A stretch of 6,087 bases of DNA from Candidatus Schekmanbacteria bacterium (GTDB lineage Bacteria > CSSED10-310 > JACPHN01), in contig JACPHN010000089.1 in the NCBI GenBank assembly GCA_016188575.1, positions 1-6,087 on the forward strand, written 5' to 3'. The notes beneath the pieces were generated by a model. It saw nothing but the letters and a program-made list of their open reading frames with translations, did not search any database and had not been told where the DNA came from. Positions 1 to 6,087 of the stretch are shown piece after piece. A program made the position numbers and the translations under genes. Position 1 is the stretch's first letter, and each line of letters opens with the position of its first letter.

Positions 1-22
1 CTTCGTCACGAAACGGCTCTTC
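1..22. repeat. Left copy of a 22-bp near-identical terminal repeat
   Basis: Bases 1-22 match 6066-6087 at 21 of 22 positions, the one difference being position 15 (G here, T at 6080). On the minus strand both encode Glu-Glu-(Pro/Gln)-Phe-Arg-Asp-Glu in the same frame of an Rpn gene. See the right copy for interpretation. Confidence 0.9.
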
Positions 23-712
23 CAGCTCCGCCGGCAGAATCAGCAGCCAGTCGATGAACCGAAAGCGCGCCTCGACTTCTTCTCGATTATACCCGCGCTC
101 GTAGAGCATCCGTACGAGGCGCAGCTTCCACGCCAGGCGCTGTTTCTGGTCCCGCGTTCGGGTCGCCCCGAGATGCGCCATGACCACCAGCGCAAAGGGA
201 TTCAGGTTTGCCTCGAGCTGGATCCCCTGTTTCGCATAGTCCACGATCTTCACTACCGGGAACCAGAATCTCACCCCGCAGTCCCAGCGCTGGCGCTCGT
301 AGAGGCCCGGCCGGAAGTCGTCGTCGAGGTCCGTGAGCACCGCCACGCTGATCACCTCCCGGTGGTAGCGGTCGAAGATGCGGTAGTTGTAGACGAACAT
401 TCGCTCGTCAAAGCCGTCCTCCGCGCGCCCTTGCACCTCGATGTGGATCAGTAGCCAGGTTTCTGCTCCATTGGCAAGGAACACCTTGACCAGCTTGTCG
501 ACAAAACGCGTGCCGAGCTCGCTGTCTCTGACCATTTGCACGAGCTCCTTGTCGAGCGGCACCAGCGGTCGCGACCAGTCGATGTCCGCATGGACTTTCG
601 GGAAAAAGAAGCTCAAGAACTGCTCCAGGAAGGCGTCGAGCATCTCCTTCCAGACGTTATCCTGCAGCGTGTGGCGAGTCCGGGTGCGAGCTCCCATCGG
701 CGTGGTTTCCAT
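1..712 (-). CDS. Rpn-family recombination-promoting nuclease / PD-(D/E)XK transposase-like protein, N-terminal part (3' end off window)
   Basis: I translated 237 codons by hand, from ATG at 712-710 to the left edge, with no stop. The product starts METTPMGART. Rpn (COG5464-type) features are a DWSRPLVPLDKEL segment (residues 45-57), VDKLVKV (71-77), and a hydrophobic strand ending in IEVQG (91-95). Asp72, Glu92 and Gln94 are my candidates for the PD-(D/E)XK metal-binding set; an E-x-Q in place of E-x-K is common in this family. After the nuclease core come DWLLILPAELEEPFRDE (221-237), the usual lead-in to the C-terminal domain. Family members are cytoplasmic DNA endonucleases first noted for promoting recA-independent recombination and later linked to phage defence. 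An in-frame TGA lies two codons upstream, so the start is ATG 712 or the second ATG at 697; neither has a strong ribosome binding site. The gene lies 128 bases downstream of the protease gene, on the same strand. Family assignment is firm; activity is inferred. Confidence 0.9.
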   Translation of the reverse strand, partial: METTPMGARTRTRHTLQDNVWKEMLDAFLEQFLSFFFPKVHADIDWSRPLVPLDKELVQMVRDSELGTRFVDKLVKVFLANGAETWLLIHIEVQGRAEDGFDERMFVYNYRIFDRYHREVISVAVLTDLDDDFRPGLYERQRWDCGVRFWFPVVKIVDYAKQGIQLEANLNPFALVVMAHLGATRTRDQKQRLAWKLRLVRMLYERGYNREEVEARFRFIDWLLILPAELEEPFRDE

Positions 713-840: not shown

Positions 841-3800
841 TCAACCATCGACCGCGAGCCTCCTTCGGGTCGCCGCCATCAGGAGCAGACCCAGGATGAT
901 CGTGAGCAGCAGCGCCGCGGGCGGTTCCGCAGACGGCACTTCGCCCGATGCCGTTGTCGGTGTCGCCGTCTCGGGCGGCGTCGCGGTGGCGGTTGGCGTC
1001 GCCGTCTCGGTCATCGTCGCGGTGGCGGTCGGAGTCGCCGTTTCGGTCATCGTCGCGGTGGGAGTCGGAGTCGCCGTCTCGGTCATCGTCGCGGTGGGAG
1101 TCGCCGTAGCAGCGGCGAGCGCGACCGCGTCCCCCTCGTCGCTGAAACCGCTCTCCTGTCCCGACGTGTCGTAGCTCGTCACCGCTGCATAGTAACGCAC
1201 CCCGCCCGTCAGGCCCGTGACCTCGCGGGTCGTTTCGAGCCCCACATCGATCGGGGCGCCATAGCTGCGCGACTCCGTCCCCCAGTAGACCCGATAGCCC
1301 GCCAGGTCATCGTCGATCGCGCCCTGCCAGGTCACGCGAATCCCATCCACGATGCCACCGACCGCCACCCCCGCGGCTACTTCGGAGGGCGTGTCGATCG
1401 TGAAGCTCAGGGGCCTCGCGTCAGGCAGGAGCAACCCCGCTGCGCTCGTGAACCCCGTCAGGTGCAGCGTGTGCGTCCCGTCTTCCGTCGAGCGTTGGAT
1501 CGGGAACGTGCCACTCCAGGTATCGTCCACCACGCGGGTCTGACTCCAACCCCCGGTCACCGCATAGCGATCCGGTCTTGGGTCCGTGCCAAAGGTCACC
1601 GTTCCCATCGAGGTGACCATCGACGCCGAAAAGGTGAGCGTGAAGGTCACCGGCTCGGCTGAGAGCTGCGTTCCCGGCAAGACGGTTGTCGAGAGCAGGT
1701 AGGCTGGCGAGGTCGCGATCGGCGCGTTGACCCAGTCGTCGTAAACTACCTTTCGCAAGGTCGTCGTGTCGTCGTAGTAGTCGCGGATCGCGCTGACGTT
1801 GCGGTTCTCGTCGTTCGTCAGGTTGCCGTTCGTGTCGTAGGCGGTCATCTGTGCCACCGTGTTGGCTGCCCAGAAGTTGCCCTTGGCGTCAACCTCGACA
1901 GGCCCGTCATTGCGCACCGTGTAGGCCGTCGGAGGGGTTGCGCCAGGGGAGGCCGCACAGACGGAGGCCGGAGCACAGTCATCGAGGTTGGAGGTGGCGA
2001 TGCTGCCCGCCGAGCTGAAGACGACCCCGTGGCCGCCGTTGGCCGCCACGGTGCTGTCGGTGATCGTCGGTCCTCCGCTCACCCCGTCGCCGGTGTTGCC
2101 CGTCACGAGCGTCCCGCTGATCGCCGTGGCACCGCTGATGCCCGTGCCGGTGTTGCCCGCGACGAGCGAGTCTATTACAGACGCTGCGTTGCTGATGCCT
2201 GCCCCGTTGTTCAGCACCCGACACCCGTTCACGGTGTTCGCTCCGCTGATTCCGGCCCCGCCGTTCTGCTCGGCGGTCGAGCCCGTCACCGTGGCCGTGG
2301 CCGCGATCCCGGCTCCGTAGTTGCCGCGCGACGTGGAGGTCGTCACCGTCCCGGCGTTGATCCCCGTGCTCCCATTGTCCTCCGCCGAGCACGAGGTGCA
2401 GGAGGCGGCCGTGATCCCAGTGCCGCCGTTGTCCGAGGCGATTGTCCCGCTGAGCGCGAAGGCAGGTGTGTCGATCCCGTTGCCGCCGTTGCCCACCGCC
2501 GTGACGTTCTGCACACTTCCCGTGCCCTGGTGGCTCAGGCCGACGCCTTGGTTGTAGCGGAAGGTGGAGTCGGTGACCGCGGCGGTCGAGCCGCTGTCGA
2601 TGGTGAGGCCCGAGCTGTTGCGCTCGATGGTGAGGTTGTCGAGCGTCACCGAGGCGCCAGAGGTGACCTCCAGGCCCGACGCGTAGCGGAAGCTGAGGTA
2701 CCGCAGAGATCGCGTCAGAGCCGAGGCGCCGCTGATGCGCAGGGTACCTCCGTCACCGGGGACGGCTACTGGCGTGCTGCCTAGCCATTCGAGCACGCTC
2801 ACCGTGTCCGAGGCCCCGTTCGCCGCGACGATGTCGTTGTCACCGTCCCCGTCCAGGTCGCCCACAGCTACGCCATAGGGAAATGTCCCCACCGCCAAGT
2901 CCTGCTTGGGTGCCCACCCCGCCGCCTCGCGAAGCAGCACGCTCACCGTGCCCGAGTTTTTGTTCGCCGCGACGATGTCGTTGTCGCCGTCGCCGTCGAG
3001 GTCGCCCACCGCTACGCCCATAGGATCGCTCCCCGCCATCAGGTCCTGTTTCGGCGCCCAGCCCGACGCCTCGCGAAGCAACACGCTCACCGTGTCCACC
3101 CCAGCGTTCGCCGCGACGATGTCGTTGTCGCCGTCCCCGTCGAGGTCGCCCACCGCTACGCTTATAGGACTGCCCACCGTCAGGTCCTGTTTCGGCGCCC
3201 AGCCCGACGCCTCGCGAAGCAACACGCTCACCGTGTCCACCCCAGCGTTCGCCGCGACGATGTCGTTGTCGCCGTCCCCGTCGAGGTCGCCCACCGCTAC
3301 GCCATACGGATTGCCCCCCTCCTGTTTCGGCGCCCAGCCCGCCGCCCCGCGAAGCAGCACGCTCACCGTGCCCGAGCCAGCGTTCGCCGCGACGATATCG
3401 TTGTCGCCGTCTCCGTCGAGGTCGCCCACCGCTACGCCCCGAGGATCGCCCCCCACCGTCAGGTCCTGTTTCGGCGCCCAGCCACTCGAATGCCGCAACA
3501 GCACGCTCACGCTGTTCGAGCTCCAGTTCGCCGTGACGATGTCGTTGTCGCCGTCCCCATCGAGGTCGCCCACCGCGACGCCAGAAGGCCCCGCCCCCAC
3601 CAGCAGATCCTGCTTCGGCGCCCAGCCCGCCGCCCCGCGAAGCAGCACGCTCACCGTGTTCGAGGCATTGTTCGCCGCGACGATGTCGCTGTCGCCGTCC
3701 CCGTCGAGGTCGCCCACCGCCACGCCAGAAGGATAGGTCCAAACCGCCAAGTCCTGTTTCGGCGCCCACCCCGTATGCGTGGGCACCGCATCCATCACCA

Positions 3801-5625
3801 CCGGCTCACTCGCCGTCCCTTGCGCATCGATGCCCCCGTTCACCAGCACCAGGTAGCTGCCCCGATACCTCAGCCGCGCCCCCGCCTGGATTGTCAGCGT
3901 GGCGCCCGCCACGACCGAGACGTTCTTGACGATCTCGTAGGTCCGACCCGCGAGCAGCGTCCGATCGCTGAACACGTCGTCCAACGTCTCGCCTCCCCCG
4001 AGCGTCAGCTCGAAGCTCACCTGCCCGGTCCAGCCCCCCGCCGCTGCAAGTGCCACCGTGAAGCTCGCCGCCACCCCGCCCGTGCTGCCTACCGTGAGCG
4101 TGAACGCATCCGCCTCGTTCGTGGCATCCTCTCCCGCCGCCAGCGCCCCGAACATCCCCGTCGTCTTCGTCAGCTCCACCACGTCCGCGCTCACCGTGGC
4201 GAGCGTCCCGGTCACGTCCACGAGGTCCCCGTAGGCGTTACCCAGCGTCACGATCAGCGTCACCGATTCTCCGGGATCGGCCTCCCCGTCGTTGTCGCCT
4301 CCCGCGCTGTCGTCCACCGTCACGCCCACCAGACTGACCTCCGGCGTGGGCGTCGTCGCGAGCGCCTGGCGCGCGTTGACCCGGCCTTTGCCCAGCGTCG
4401 CGTCCGCGAGCGCATCCGCCGTCCGCCGGATCTGCTCCACGACCAGGCCTTGGGACCATCCCGGGTTCTCGCTCAAAAGCAGGCCGGCCACGCCTGACAC
4501 GAACGGCGCCGCCATCGACGTCCCGCTCCACGACGCGTAGGTGTTGTCAAACAGCGTGGACCAGATCTGATGACCCGGCGCGGCCACGTCCACCCAGTCG
4601 CCGCGATTCGAAAAGCCCCAGCGCGCGTCGTCGGCATCGGTTGCCGCCACGGCCAGAACCCCCTCGAAGTCGGCCGGGTAGAAGGGCGAGGTCGAGTCGT
4701 TGTTGCCCGCGGCTCCCACCACGACCGCGTCCTTTCCCTGCGCATACTGGACGGCGAGCCTCACCGTTTCCGAGCTCGCCGTGCTCCCCAGACTGAGGTT
4801 GATCACCCGGGCCCCGCTATCCGCCGCGAGCTGGATCCCGCTGGCGATCTGGCTATACGTCCCATATCCGGAGGCATCCAGCACCTTGATCGGCACGATC
4901 CGGCACCCCCAGCAAACCCCGGCGCCGCCTTGGGCGTTGTCCGATCCCGCGGCGGCGATCCCCGCCACGTGGGTGCCGTGGCCGTTATCATCGCTCGGGT
5001 CGCTGTCGCCGTTGACCACGTCGGCGCCGGCCACCGGGACGATCTTGTCCGCGAGGTCCGGGTGGTCGAGGTCCACGCCGGTGTCGAGGATGGCGATGAG
5101 GACGCTCGAATCCCCGGTCTCCAGGTCCCATGCTTCGGGGGCGTCGATGTCCGCATCGGCGGTTCCACCGGTTTGCCCGGTATTGTGCAGTCCCCACTGG
5201 TCGGTATAGTCCGGGTCATCGGGGCTTGCGGCGACCCGCATCCATCTGTCTGGTTCCGCCCACTGGACCCGGGTGTCTGCCTGGAGCGCGGCGAGCGCCG
5301 CCGACACGTCCGGCACCTCGAGCTTCCAGACGCGGTCGAGGCCCGCGTCTGTGGCCGGAGCCTCGCGAAACACCCGCCGCGCGGCGGAGGCCCGGGTGCG
5401 CGCCAGCAGCTCCGACAGATCGGCCCGAGCTGCCGGTGCCAACGCTTCCGGCAGGCTCGCCGAGGCCCTCAGCTTGAGAATCACCCCGGCGGCCGGCCGC
5501 GCATCGCCGCCAGCGGCCGCACCCAGCGCGTTGCCGTGGGGGCCAGCTCCAAGCGCCAGCAGCACCAGTGCCACCGACGCCGCCAGCACCGTTCGCACCC
5601 GCCATCCGGTCCGTGTTCGTTTCAT
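841..5625 (-). CDS. Secreted multidomain subtilisin-like serine protease (peptidase S8) with FG-GAP propeller, beta-helix, fibronectin III and C-terminal membrane anchor
   Basis: A 1594-residue extracytoplasmic endopeptidase, far longer than a simple subtilisin. The start is ATG 5625, preceded by AGGGGG six bases upstream; an in-frame TTG at 5631 abuts that site and is unlikely. Domains (residues from this ATG): Arg-rich signal peptide with hydrophobic core 12-28, cleavage probably near 38; propeptide 47-130, ending with WAEPD (122-126); S8 domain about 138-423 with Asp181 (ILDTGVD), His216 (NGHGTHVAG), oxyanion Asn308 (AAGN) and Ser370 (SGTSMAAPF), plus a Cys pair 238/241; CARDB/Ig-like domain 430-543 with an acidic DGEADPGE motif; beta-helix start 556-613; seven FG-GAP/VCBS repeats 619-947; beta-helix continuation about 949-1255; Ig-like 1315-1413; fibronectin III 1414-1503; Thr/Pro stalk 1511-1558; hydrophobic segment 1569-1585 followed by RRR (1587-1589). 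The full catalytic set suggests an active protease. The substrate is unknown. A role in degrading external protein or in processing surface proteins is inference. Upstream neighbour spacing is 87 bases. Confidence 0.95.
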   Translation of the reverse strand: MKRTRTGWRVRTVLAASVALVLLALGAGPHGNALGAAAGGDARPAAGVILKLRASASLPEALAPAARADLSELLARTRASAARRVFREAPATDAGLDRVWKLEVPDVSAALAALQADTRVQWAEPDRWMRVAASPDDPDYTDQWGLHNTGQTGGTADADIDAPEAWDLETGDSSVLIAILDTGVDLDHPDLADKIVPVAGADVVNGDSDPSDDNGHGTHVAGIAAAGSDNAQGGAGVCWGCRIVPIKVLDASGYGTYSQIASGIQLAADSGARVINLSLGSTASSETVRLAVQYAQGKDAVVVGAAGNNDSTSPFYPADFEGVLAVAATDADDARWGFSNRGDWVDVAAPGHQIWSTLFDNTYASWSGTSMAAPFVSGVAGLLLSENPGWSQGLVVEQIRRTADALADATLGKGRVNARQALATTPTPEVSLVGVTVDDSAGGDNDGEADPGESVTLIVTLGNAYGDLVDVTGTLATVSADVVELTKTTGMFGALAAGEDATNEADAFTLTVGSTGGVAASFTVALAAAGGWTGQVSFELTLGGGETLDDVFSDRTLLAGRTYEIVKNVSVVAGATLTIQAGARLRYRGSYLVLVNGGIDAQGTASEPVVMDAVPTHTGWAPKQDLAVWTYPSGVAVGDLDGDGDSDIVAANNASNTVSVLLRGAAGWAPKQDLLVGAGPSGVAVGDLDGDGDNDIVTANWSSNSVSVLLRHSSGWAPKQDLTVGGDPRGVAVGDLDGDGDNDIVAANAGSGTVSVLLRGAAGWAPKQEGGNPYGVAVGDLDGDGDNDIVAANAGVDTVSVLLREASGWAPKQDLTVGSPISVAVGDLDGDGDNDIVAANAGVDTVSVLLREASGWAPKQDLMAGSDPMGVAVGDLDGDGDNDIVAANKNSGTVSVLLREAAGWAPKQDLAVGTFPYGVAVGDLDGDGDNDIVAANGASDTVSVLEWLGSTPVAVPGDGGTLRISGASALTRSLRYLSFRYASGLEVTSGASVTLDNLTIERNSSGLTIDSGSTAAVTDSTFRYNQGVGLSHQGTGSVQNVTAVGNGGNGIDTPAFALSGTIASDNGGTGITAASCTSCSAEDNGSTGINAGTVTTSTSRGNYGAGIAATATVTGSTAEQNGGAGISGANTVNGCRVLNNGAGISNAASVIDSLVAGNTGTGISGATAISGTLVTGNTGDGVSGGPTITDSTVAANGGHGVVFSSAGSIATSNLDDCAPASVCAASPGATPPTAYTVRNDGPVEVDAKGNFWAANTVAQMTAYDTNGNLTNDENRNVSAIRDYYDDTTTLRKVVYDDWVNAPIATSPAYLLSTTVLPGTQLSAEPVTFTLTFSASMVTSMGTVTFGTDPRPDRYAVTGGWSQTRVVDDTWSGTFPIQRSTEDGTHTLHLTGFTSAAGLLLPDARPLSFTIDTPSEVAAGVAVGGIVDGIRVTWQGAIDDDLAGYRVYWGTESRSYGAPIDVGLETTREVTGLTGGVRYYAAVTSYDTSGQESGFSDEGDAVALAAATATPTATMTETATPTPTATMTETATPTATATMTETATPTATATPPETATPTTASGEVPSAEPPAALLLTIILGLLLMAATRRRLAVDG
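952..1095 (-). repeat. Four 36-bp repeats encoding the Thr/Pro stalk of the protease
   Basis: Four 12-residue units at protein residues 1511-1558. Three read TATMTETATPT plus P or A, and the last is TATPPETATPT. It links the fibronectin III domain to the C-terminal hydrophobic segment, as a flexible spacer would. Thr/Pro-rich spacers of this kind hold domains away from the cell surface and are often glycosylated; that modification is inferred. The DNA units are near-identical and could vary in number by slippage. Confidence 0.85.
2785..3771 (-). repeat. Seven tandem FG-GAP/VCBS repeats (about 144 bp each) inside the protease gene
   Basis: Each unit encodes GWAPKQDL, a short variable loop, then GVAVGDLDGDGDNDIVAAN and TVSVLLR. 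In transcript order the units lie at 3628-3771, 3484-3627, 3340-3483, 3205-3339, 3064-3204, 2920-3063 and 2785-2919. Spacing is 48 residues except for one unit of 45 and one of 47, with the losses in the variable loop. The D-x-D-G-D-G-D core is the calcium-binding loop of integrin-type FG-GAP blades, so seven units fit one complete calcium-stabilised beta-propeller. In family members such repeats mediate binding to other proteins or glycans; the ligand here is unknown. Units are strongly conserved at the DNA level, implying recent expansion or gene conversion. Confidence 0.93.
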
Positions 5626-5712
5626 GATCAACCCCCTGTCTCGACGCCGGCCCCAGATCCTGACGCAAGCGTGTCCCCGCGTGCCCCCAACCGCCCGGCA
5701 ATGGCAGACTGG
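5626..5712. other. Spacer between the right Rpn gene and the protease gene
   Basis: These 87 bases separate the Rpn TAG stop (5713-5715) from the protease ATG. Apart from the protease ribosome binding site I see no convincing sigma-70 promoter, operator or intrinsic terminator. The same orientation and short distance permit read-through from the Rpn gene, but no functional link between the two is implied by sequence. Confidence 0.4.
5632..5637 (-). promoter_or_regulatory. Ribosome binding site that sets the protease start
   Basis: On the minus strand the bases AGGGGG end six bases before ATG 5625. This is a good Shine-Dalgarno-like purine run at normal spacing. It directly abuts the alternative TTG at 5631, which would leave no spacing, so the ATG is preferred. 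The protein then begins MKRTRTGW, a typical basic n-region for a signal peptide. Confidence 0.7.
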
Positions 5713-6039
5713 CTATTCCGATGGCTCCTCAGCCGAGCCGAGCAGCGCCTCGATCGCCTCCAGCGGTTCGCCACTGCTTAGCGCGCGGGTGATCGCCCTG
5801 AGCCGCTCGATCGCCTCGATGCTTCGCGCCCGTGCGAGGAGCTCCGCGGCTTGTGCGGGAAACCGGACACTCAATCCGACGTCGATCGCTTCAAGAAGAC
5901 CTTTCTGAACTCCAAGCCGCTCGCCCTTCTCGATTCCGAGCCGCTCGCCCTTCTCGATTCCGAGCCGCTCGCCCTTCTTGATTCCGAGGCGCTCGCCCTT
6001 CTCGATTCCGAGCCGCTCGATGCTGGTAACGTAGGCCAT
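5713..6039 (-). CDS. Candidate internal RpnS-like antitoxin (108 aa) translated from within the Rpn gene
   Basis: ATG 6039-6037 lies in frame inside the Rpn coding region and is preceded by AAGGTGAG, with the GGTGA ending four bases before the ATG, near-ideal for that part of the Shine-Dalgarno sequence. A second in-frame ATG at 6057 is less well placed. The product would be 108 residues: MAYVTSI, five ERLG-x-x-K-G repeats, and a helical tail. In E. coli and relatives, Rpn C-terminal domains (RpnS) are made separately from internal starts and block the toxic full-length RpnL; their dimer helix carries four-residue repeats of variable number. Here glycine recurs every fourth residue (ERLG, IEKG), which matches that pattern. 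Separate translation is inferred from the ribosome binding site, not shown. Confidence 0.55.
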   Translation of the reverse strand: MAYVTSIERLGIEKGERLGIKKGERLGIEKGERLGIEKGERLGVQKGLLEAIDVGLSVRFPAQAAELLARARSIEAIERLRAITRALSSGEPLEAIEALLGSAEEPSE

Positions 6040-6087
6040 TTTCTCACCTTTCTCCATTTTCTCGACTTCGTCACGAAACTGCTCTTC
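5713..6087 (-). CDS. Rpn-family nuclease, C-terminal part (5' end off window)
   Basis: The open frame is continuous from the right edge, so the true start lies outside the window. It gives 124 residues: EEQFRDEVEK, then MEKGEKMAYVTSIERLG, five 8-residue repeats, and a helical tail (LLEAIDVGLSVRFPAQAAELL and so on) ending EEPSE. The opening EEQFRDE matches EEPFRDE at the end of the visible part of the left Rpn gene, with the same position and phase. The M-x-Y-V-T-S-I-E-R lead-in followed by charged E-K-G/E-R-x-G repeats is the common C-terminal form of Rpn/transposase-like proteins. The nuclease core would be encoded beyond the right edge, unless the window ends join. The C-terminal domain mediates dimerisation and, in E. 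coli Rpn proteins, inhibition of the nuclease. It precedes the protease gene by 87 bases. Confidence 0.88.
   Translation of the reverse strand, partial: EEQFRDEVEKMEKGEKMAYVTSIERLGIEKGERLGIKKGERLGIEKGERLGIEKGERLGVQKGLLEAIDVGLSVRFPAQAAELLARARSIEAIERLRAITRALSSGEPLEAIEALLGSAEEPSE
5899..6018 (-). repeat. Five 24-bp repeats encoding ERLG-IEKG units in the Rpn C-terminal domain
   Basis: The units lie at 5995-6018, 5971-5994, 5947-5970, 5923-5946 and 5899-5922. Three are identical (5995-6018, 5947-5970, 5923-5946), one differs at two bases (giving IKKG), and the last is diverged (VQKG). They encode an alternating basic/acidic helix with glycine at every fourth position. Near-identity of in-frame units indicates copy-number change by slippage or recombination, as reported for repeat-bearing Rpn dimer helices. 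The array keeps the frame for any copy number. Confidence 0.9.
6042..6049 (-). promoter_or_regulatory. Strong internal ribosome binding site within the Rpn gene
   Basis: The minus strand reads AAGGTGAG followed by AAA and ATG (6039). GGTGA pairs with the anti-Shine-Dalgarno 3' part, and the spacing suits that register. A further GGAG lies a few bases upstream. In a gene whose codons are otherwise GC-rich, this A/G-rich patch stands out, consistent with selection for initiation, although it also encodes the lysine/glutamate-rich EKGEK. Confidence 0.6.
6066..6087. repeat. Right copy of the 22-bp terminal repeat
   Basis: Direct repeat of bases 1-22 with one mismatch (T6080 versus G15). It falls exactly at the window end and in the homologous codons of an Rpn gene. 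Overlapping the two ends would reconstitute one continuous Rpn frame of about 354 codons. The alternative is two Rpn paralogues flanking the protease gene. Confidence 0.9.

Follow-up and report, generated by a model that had tools for sequence, protein, structure and literature searches.

A predicted antitoxin start inside a divergent Rpn-like nuclease gene and its conservation across phyla

Introduction

Does the 3' part of an Rpn-like gene at the edge of a Candidatus Schekmanbacteria contig encode, besides the C terminus of a nuclease, a second and shorter protein that begins at its own internal codon? Precedents for such an arrangement exist: for E. coli RpnA, RpnB, and RpnP2, the short product was found to block the long one, and the internal start of RpnA is M244 (PMC10327210), the residue at which the RpnA_S crystal structure 7th0 starts. 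So far, RpnS has been demonstrated in E. coli and for one C. difficile gene (PMC10327210). A preliminary description of the present DNA proposed that this gene-within-gene layout is also found in a distant, GC-rich lineage. Here, we report a computational analysis of that proposal. Very probably, the feature is the C-terminal portion of a divergent Rpn toxin gene from which two proteins would be made, the nuclease RpnL and its antitoxin RpnS, as judged from the DNA of this genome and of its relatives.

Results

The window, i.e., the entire stretch of DNA analyzed, corresponds to the whole 6087-base contig C203 of the source assembly (9.2 Mb, 275 contigs), and its features are listed in Table 1. 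The internal start had been placed inside the Rpn gene; it is indeed in frame with it, but only the 3' part of the gene is present in the window, since the contig end cuts off the rest. The N-terminal nuclease part of this copy lies beyond that end, and the Rpn N terminus at 2-712 belongs to a different copy. Close paralogues are located on contigs C178, C222, and C208 of the source genome, and a more distant one on C66. The C222 and C178 paralogues run on upstream into the nuclease domain, and C222 spans the junction, its C-terminal piece being continuous with that domain.

Table 1. Coordinates of the window features and the observations on which they are based
Feature	Position	Strand	Basis or remark
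Rpn-like (RpnL) gene, 3' part, 124 codons	5713..6087	minus	ORF list; contig end cuts off 5' part
Predicted RpnS, 108-residue C-terminal protein from internal ATG	5713..6039	minus	ORF list; AF2 model with a long helix (6-59) and three helices
Predicted internal ATG start codon	6037..6039	minus	Met column of 162 non-redundant homologues: ATG 141, GTG 10
Candidate ribosome binding site AAGGTGAG	6043..6050	minus	AGGTGA pairs with extended anti-SD; duplex -7.4 kcal/mol
24-bp tandem repeats (8-residue IEKGERLG) in first helix, about 4 units	5911..6019	minus	TRF, 4.5 copies
Alternative in-frame ATG	6055..6057	minus	Weak SD (-2.4); not conserved in family
Second Rpn-like copy, N-terminal nuclease part, 237 codons; 3' end off contig	2..712	minus	Residue alignment; AF2 pLDDT 86.6
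Large S8-type protease with tandem repeats	841-5631	minus	Between the two Rpn-like parts

The S8 protease gene carries about seven repeats of 144 bp at 2792-3773, which are 82% alike and encode VAVGDLDGDGDNDIVAAN units of the FG-GAP/VCBS type, as well as a 36-bp TPTATATMTETA stalk repeat at 956-1097. The two contig ends (1-25 and 6063-6087) fall within near-identical stretches of the two Rpn copies that flank the protease, and C208 (L012 269-1198) holds a broken Rpn copy fused to a protease-like C-terminal tail, SGEVPSAEPPAALLLTIILGLLL. The C208 fusion points to recombination at a tandem rpn-protease array.

Profile comparison places the encoded protein in the Rpn superfamily. An hhalign comparison limited to 12 homologues and four E. 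coli sequences had too little depth (probability 4.7%); setting 90 relatives against 11 canonical Rpn sequences instead gave 99.4% probability (E=2.9e-21, 288 columns), or 86% (E=4.8e-6) for the N-terminal part alone. The window protein scored below the curated cut-offs of TIGR01784 (17.3 versus 52.1 bits) and PF04754 (13.6 versus 21 bits), and it thus represents a divergent branch of the superfamily rather than a member of these models. DUF4351 (PF14261) had no Pfam match in the window protein and matched 3 of the 12 homologues in alignment A1, at best with 4.4e-24. In the second copy (2-712) and the C222 paralogue, from which the nuclease part was taken, the active-site residues are D18, D72, E92, Q94, and R104, which pair in hhalign with RpnA D11, D63, E82, Q84, and R94, residues that matter by mutation (PMC5350276). 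D18, D72, E92, and R104 are invariant in alignments A1 and A5, and Q94 is invariant in A5 and present in at least 90% of A1. These residues, together with the profile comparison, support the proposed assignment to Rpn in a distant lineage. In a PDB search, the AF2 model of the nuclease part retrieved EndoMS/NucS PD-(D/E)XK nucleases first, although weakly (Foldseek E 0.07), with structural matches of Z 5.6-6.0 over 102-109 residues and an rmsd of 3.2-3.8 A. PADLOC returned no match, and no relatives were found in the viral contigs searched.

The sequence around the internal start reads GAGAAAATGGAGAAAGGTGAGAAA directly followed by ATGGCCTACGTT on the minus strand (5' to 3'). The first base of the ATG is 6039, and AGGTGA occupies 6044-6049 within AAGGTGAG. 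As had been described, the spacing is good: the purine-rich stretch ends 4 nt before the ATG, with the GGAGG-equivalent core about 7 nt upstream. From 6039 to the TAG at 5713-5715, the frame comprises 108 codons, the size of C-terminal product given at the outset. The in-frame ATG at 6057 was also considered as a start; 6039 is the better candidate because 6057 has almost no Shine-Dalgarno (SD) sequence.

The window alone, however, does not carry the argument. Its site is shifted and weaker than the family consensus GAGGAGG, and its strength does not exceed what EKGEK would yield in a GC-rich genome: the pairing energy of -7.4 kcal/mol, calculated with an anti-SD not read from the host genome, whose assembly lacks the 16S 3' end, is no better than chance when compared to the mean of synonymous encodings (-6.9, p=0.53). 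The local sequence alone was therefore rejected as proof, and the evidence beyond chance comes from the relatives.

Relatives were gathered from plasmids by tblastn, from species genomes that were scanned, and from several groups whose whole genomes were searched; further loci were then added. A hidden Markov model (HMM) was used to locate the Met column in 195 homologues that were full-length and carried the motif, representing 98 clusters at 70% identity, and the SD null was obtained by synonymous shuffling with each gene's own codon usage. The codon counts of the Met column are from a set that was not preselected for ATG or GTG. At 97% non-redundancy (n=162), this column held ATG in 141 and GTG in 10 homologues and no Ile codon; the remainder were AAA/AAG (3), GAC (4), GAG (1), GAA (1), CTG (1), and GTC (1).

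For the 90 start-bearing clusters (70% identity), which span Cyanobacteria, Desulfobacterota, Chloroflexota, Gammaproteobacteria, and Planctomycetota, the mean pairing energy was -9.60 as compared to a synonymous null of -5.85 (sd 0.30), corresponding to z=-12.4. Two controls were available. No SD signal preceded the remaining 478 in-frame ATGs in these genes (z=0.7), and the 7 clusters without an aligned start codon showed no synonymous bias (-4.30 versus a null of -4.44, z=0.2). The latter control is conservative, since two loci counted there as "non-start" by the alignment may not belong to it: L211 looks misaligned, and L212, from Planctomycetota, has lost the aligned start codon, with AAGGAGGTCGAAAAA preceding a Met that lies two codons further downstream. 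In L212, the internal start thus seems to have shifted together with its ribosome binding site. The SD effect was found in all four GC3 classes (z of -6.1, -7.6, -6.2, and -5.1, the last for the 33 members with GC3>=0.7), so that AT-rich cyanobacteria are not its driver.

The signal can be followed to individual bases. The nucleotide consensus at -15 to -9 before the Met is GAGGAGG. Glu is encoded by GAG at -4 in 62 of 65 cases (32 expected) and at -5 in 54 of 70 (33 expected), whereas GAG is at expectation at -3 (24 of 57, 28 expected) and +7 (41 of 87, 42 expected). The linker residue at -5 varies (Q, T, M, V), and its codons CAG, ACG, ATG, and GTG all keep the G. Val replaces Met as GTG, itself a start codon, in six independent cases, even though GTG makes up only about a tenth of the Val codons in three of the genes concerned (product of probabilities 2e-4); taken alone, this argument is weaker, because a single base change can turn Met into Val only as ATG to GTG. 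A homologue with Lys (AAA) at the Met column (L113) has GAAGAACGGGAACGC in place of GAGGAGG. The preliminary description had suggested comparing homologues for conservation of the Met and of the ribosome binding bases at synonymous sites; across the 195 homologues both were kept, and the homologues that lost the start had no SD bias. The computation shows that the predicted internal start and its ribosome binding site are under selection at the nucleotide level across phyla.

The start codon was lost in about 10 of the 162 homologues, which indicates that the short product is not always required. A Planctomycetota sub-branch (L209/L276, L210, L275, L277, L297) has wholly lost the internal Met (KDDVYMLPWERD, KVEIHLTRWERQ), and L276 has a partial C-terminal copy downstream, likewise without Met. 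In canonical Rpn-type genes with a DUF4351-like tail (L137, L194, L195, L221), the internal Met is likewise preceded by an almost perfect SD (e.g., AAAGGAGGTGAAGTG ATG), and the signal thus reaches beyond the window's branch of Rpn.

The C-terminal part is also encoded separately. A Desulfobacteraceae genome contains an 86-codon ORF (L286 2132-2392) starting ttggagaagaagATG, about 0.8 kb downstream of the full gene, in which similarity to RpnS begins at the conserved Met. Other free-standing C-terminal ORFs beginning at this Met were found in L288, in L081 (two copies), and in Calothrix (L111, about 3698), the last without an SD. In the source genome, C53 (L022 1501-1758, minus strand) has an intact 85-codon RpnS-like ORF starting MPHVLSIERIAEKR behind GGAGGAGAAGG, with the upstream nuclease part decayed to a frameshifted remnant; this ORF may be an antitoxin that outlived its toxin or a chance survival. 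On a Synechococcus elongatus plasmid (L030 1-1836), the full gene is followed by a partial C-terminal duplicate that includes the ribosome binding site and Met and holds an in-frame TGA; this homologue adjoins the DISARM gene drmA. C66 has two adjacent Rpn-type genes (L009 329-1351 and 1492-2427) with different N termini and similar C-terminal tails (DRWLRSAIMASSAAEVLDGAS and ERWLRRAVTASSAAEVFEEAS). The shared tails suggest that the antitoxin domain was exchanged between toxins.

It has been proposed that SD-like stretches inside genes slow down ribosomes. GAGGAGG, which sits at the domain boundary, might accordingly be a pause site that lets the first domain fold, with the Met kept for protein reasons and with no separate protein being made. 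Such a pause would need no start codon, yet GTG is the only repeated hydrophobic replacement at the Met column; nor would it account for the disappearance of the SD bias where the start codon is lost, for the confined spacing from SD to ATG, or for free-standing copies that begin at the conserved Met. Since E. coli Rpn genes initiate at the corresponding place as well (PMC10327210), we regard a pause site as highly improbable.

Internal initiation may also have been lost in this particular genome, its site being in decay or unused after AGGTGA in EKGEK replaced GAGGAGG and recombination broke copies. The chance-level site of the window and the broken C208 and C53 copies are in line with this. 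Nevertheless, a correctly spaced AGGTGA remains a good site; C178, C222, and C203 all have it unaltered, even the broken C208 copy has preserved it, and the C66 paralogue retains both GAGGAGG and Met, so that decay appears unlikely.

The repeat array just downstream of the start, as had been noted, is genuine, with period 24, 4.5 copies, and 94% matches in TRF. Its units follow directly on MAYVTSIERLG, with the first about 11 residues past the internal Met, and come in multiples of four residues and in variable number; RpnS repeats begin 8-20 residues after the internal Met (PMC10327210). Among the near-identical paralogues, those of the window and C178 have four copies of IEKGERLG each and that of C222 has one, with closely similar sequence beyond them, indicating that copy number changes in 24-bp steps within one genome and agreeing with the 8-residue (2 x 4) unit assumed earlier. 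The AF2 model of the 108-residue part (pLDDT 77) shows helices 64-72, 77-89, and 93-101 after the repeat-bearing helix. RpnS proteins are dimers whose long first helix belongs to a three-helix bundle, and the predicted fold may be compatible with RpnA_S as it has been described. A PDB search with this model yielded nothing significant, and the matches listed did not include RpnA_S entry 7th0. Pfam matches of the repeat helix to FliH were dismissed, as they look like a composition effect.

Discussion

Clear parallels emerge between the locus and the E. coli RpnA/RpnB/RpnC/RpnE proteins (COG5464, PF04754, TIGR01784). Both have a PD-(D/E)XK nuclease with the five active-site residues, an internal start (predicted for the locus) that is in frame, lies at the domain boundary, and has its own ribosome binding site, a C-terminal helix with a variable number of repeats in multiples of four residues, and C-terminal parts that also occur as free-standing copies. 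However, the two are distant in sequence: the motif is MTIAERLRQEG in E. coli and MxYVTSxERxG in the window's family, the C-terminal part has 49 residues there and 108 in the window, and the repeat unit in the window's genome has 8 residues. Closer relatives are cyanobacterial proteins from Nostoc and Synechococcus plasmids, annotated as "cytosolic protein," "DUF4351 domain-containing protein," or "Rpn family nuclease," which are whole-length homologues (44-51% identity) with Met and ribosome binding site as in the window, but which usually have a 4-residue GIEQ-type repeat and GAGGAGG and are annotated without a second protein.

Based on these parallels, the full-length product would be RpnL, a PD-(D/E)XK DNA nuclease, and initiation at 6039 from its own SD site would give RpnS, the C-terminal repeat-helix domain alone. 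RpnS would most likely pair with the same domain in RpnL via the repeat-bearing helix. Made in excess and matched in length to its partner, it may block DNA cleavage until released, and would thus keep the nuclease off until infection or stress. In the second copy, the SD at the start of the long protein is poor (-3.4 versus -7.4 at 6039), which is the direction expected if antitoxin exceeds toxin and is suggestive only. By analogy with E. coli and C. difficile (PMC10327210), RpnS would be translated, form a complex with RpnL, inhibit it, and take part in phage defence.

Initiation at 6039 could be real and its product nevertheless not an antitoxin. A smaller protein from an internal in-frame start of a defence gene is also known from Cas10d/Cas11d and from Cas11b, where, unlike an inhibitor, it is a working subunit; these proteins are unrelated to Rpn. 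The short protein might likewise be a positive subunit, as Cas11d is for Cas10d, or a DNA-targeting or oligomerisation module, and proteins made from genes within genes are known in complementary as well as in opposing roles (PMC10327210). The short product nevertheless blocks the long one in all three E. coli cases cited above, and the architecture, active site, and repeat variation match those of E. coli Rpn, which makes a role other than that of an antitoxin very unlikely.

What the genomes display directly is a conserved signal for putative internal initiation, a conserved nuclease, repeat variation, and an apparently movable C-terminal unit. The gene-within-gene kind is already known (Zhong et al. 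2023); what is new is the apparent synonymous-site selection in a divergent branch that spans several phyla, and no published report of this comparison was found in the literature searched.

The synonymous-site signature extends the gene-within-gene layout to Cyanobacteria, Desulfobacterota, Chloroflexota, Gammaproteobacteria, and Planctomycetota. We lean toward the broader view that the internal antitoxin start is ancestral and nearly obligatory in the whole Rpn/DUF4351 superfamily, with single-base selection in at least five phyla and with start-losing lineages also losing the SD bias, in which case many "hypothetical," "cytosolic," or "DUF4351" proteins would be unannotated two-protein toxin-antitoxin genes. 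A test that needs sequence only, in which a kept start codon and a kept SD are compared with other Met residues as control, could reveal more hidden starts. The signature also predicts which copies have lost the antitoxin; these are expected either to be inactive or to rely on a free-standing copy for protection.
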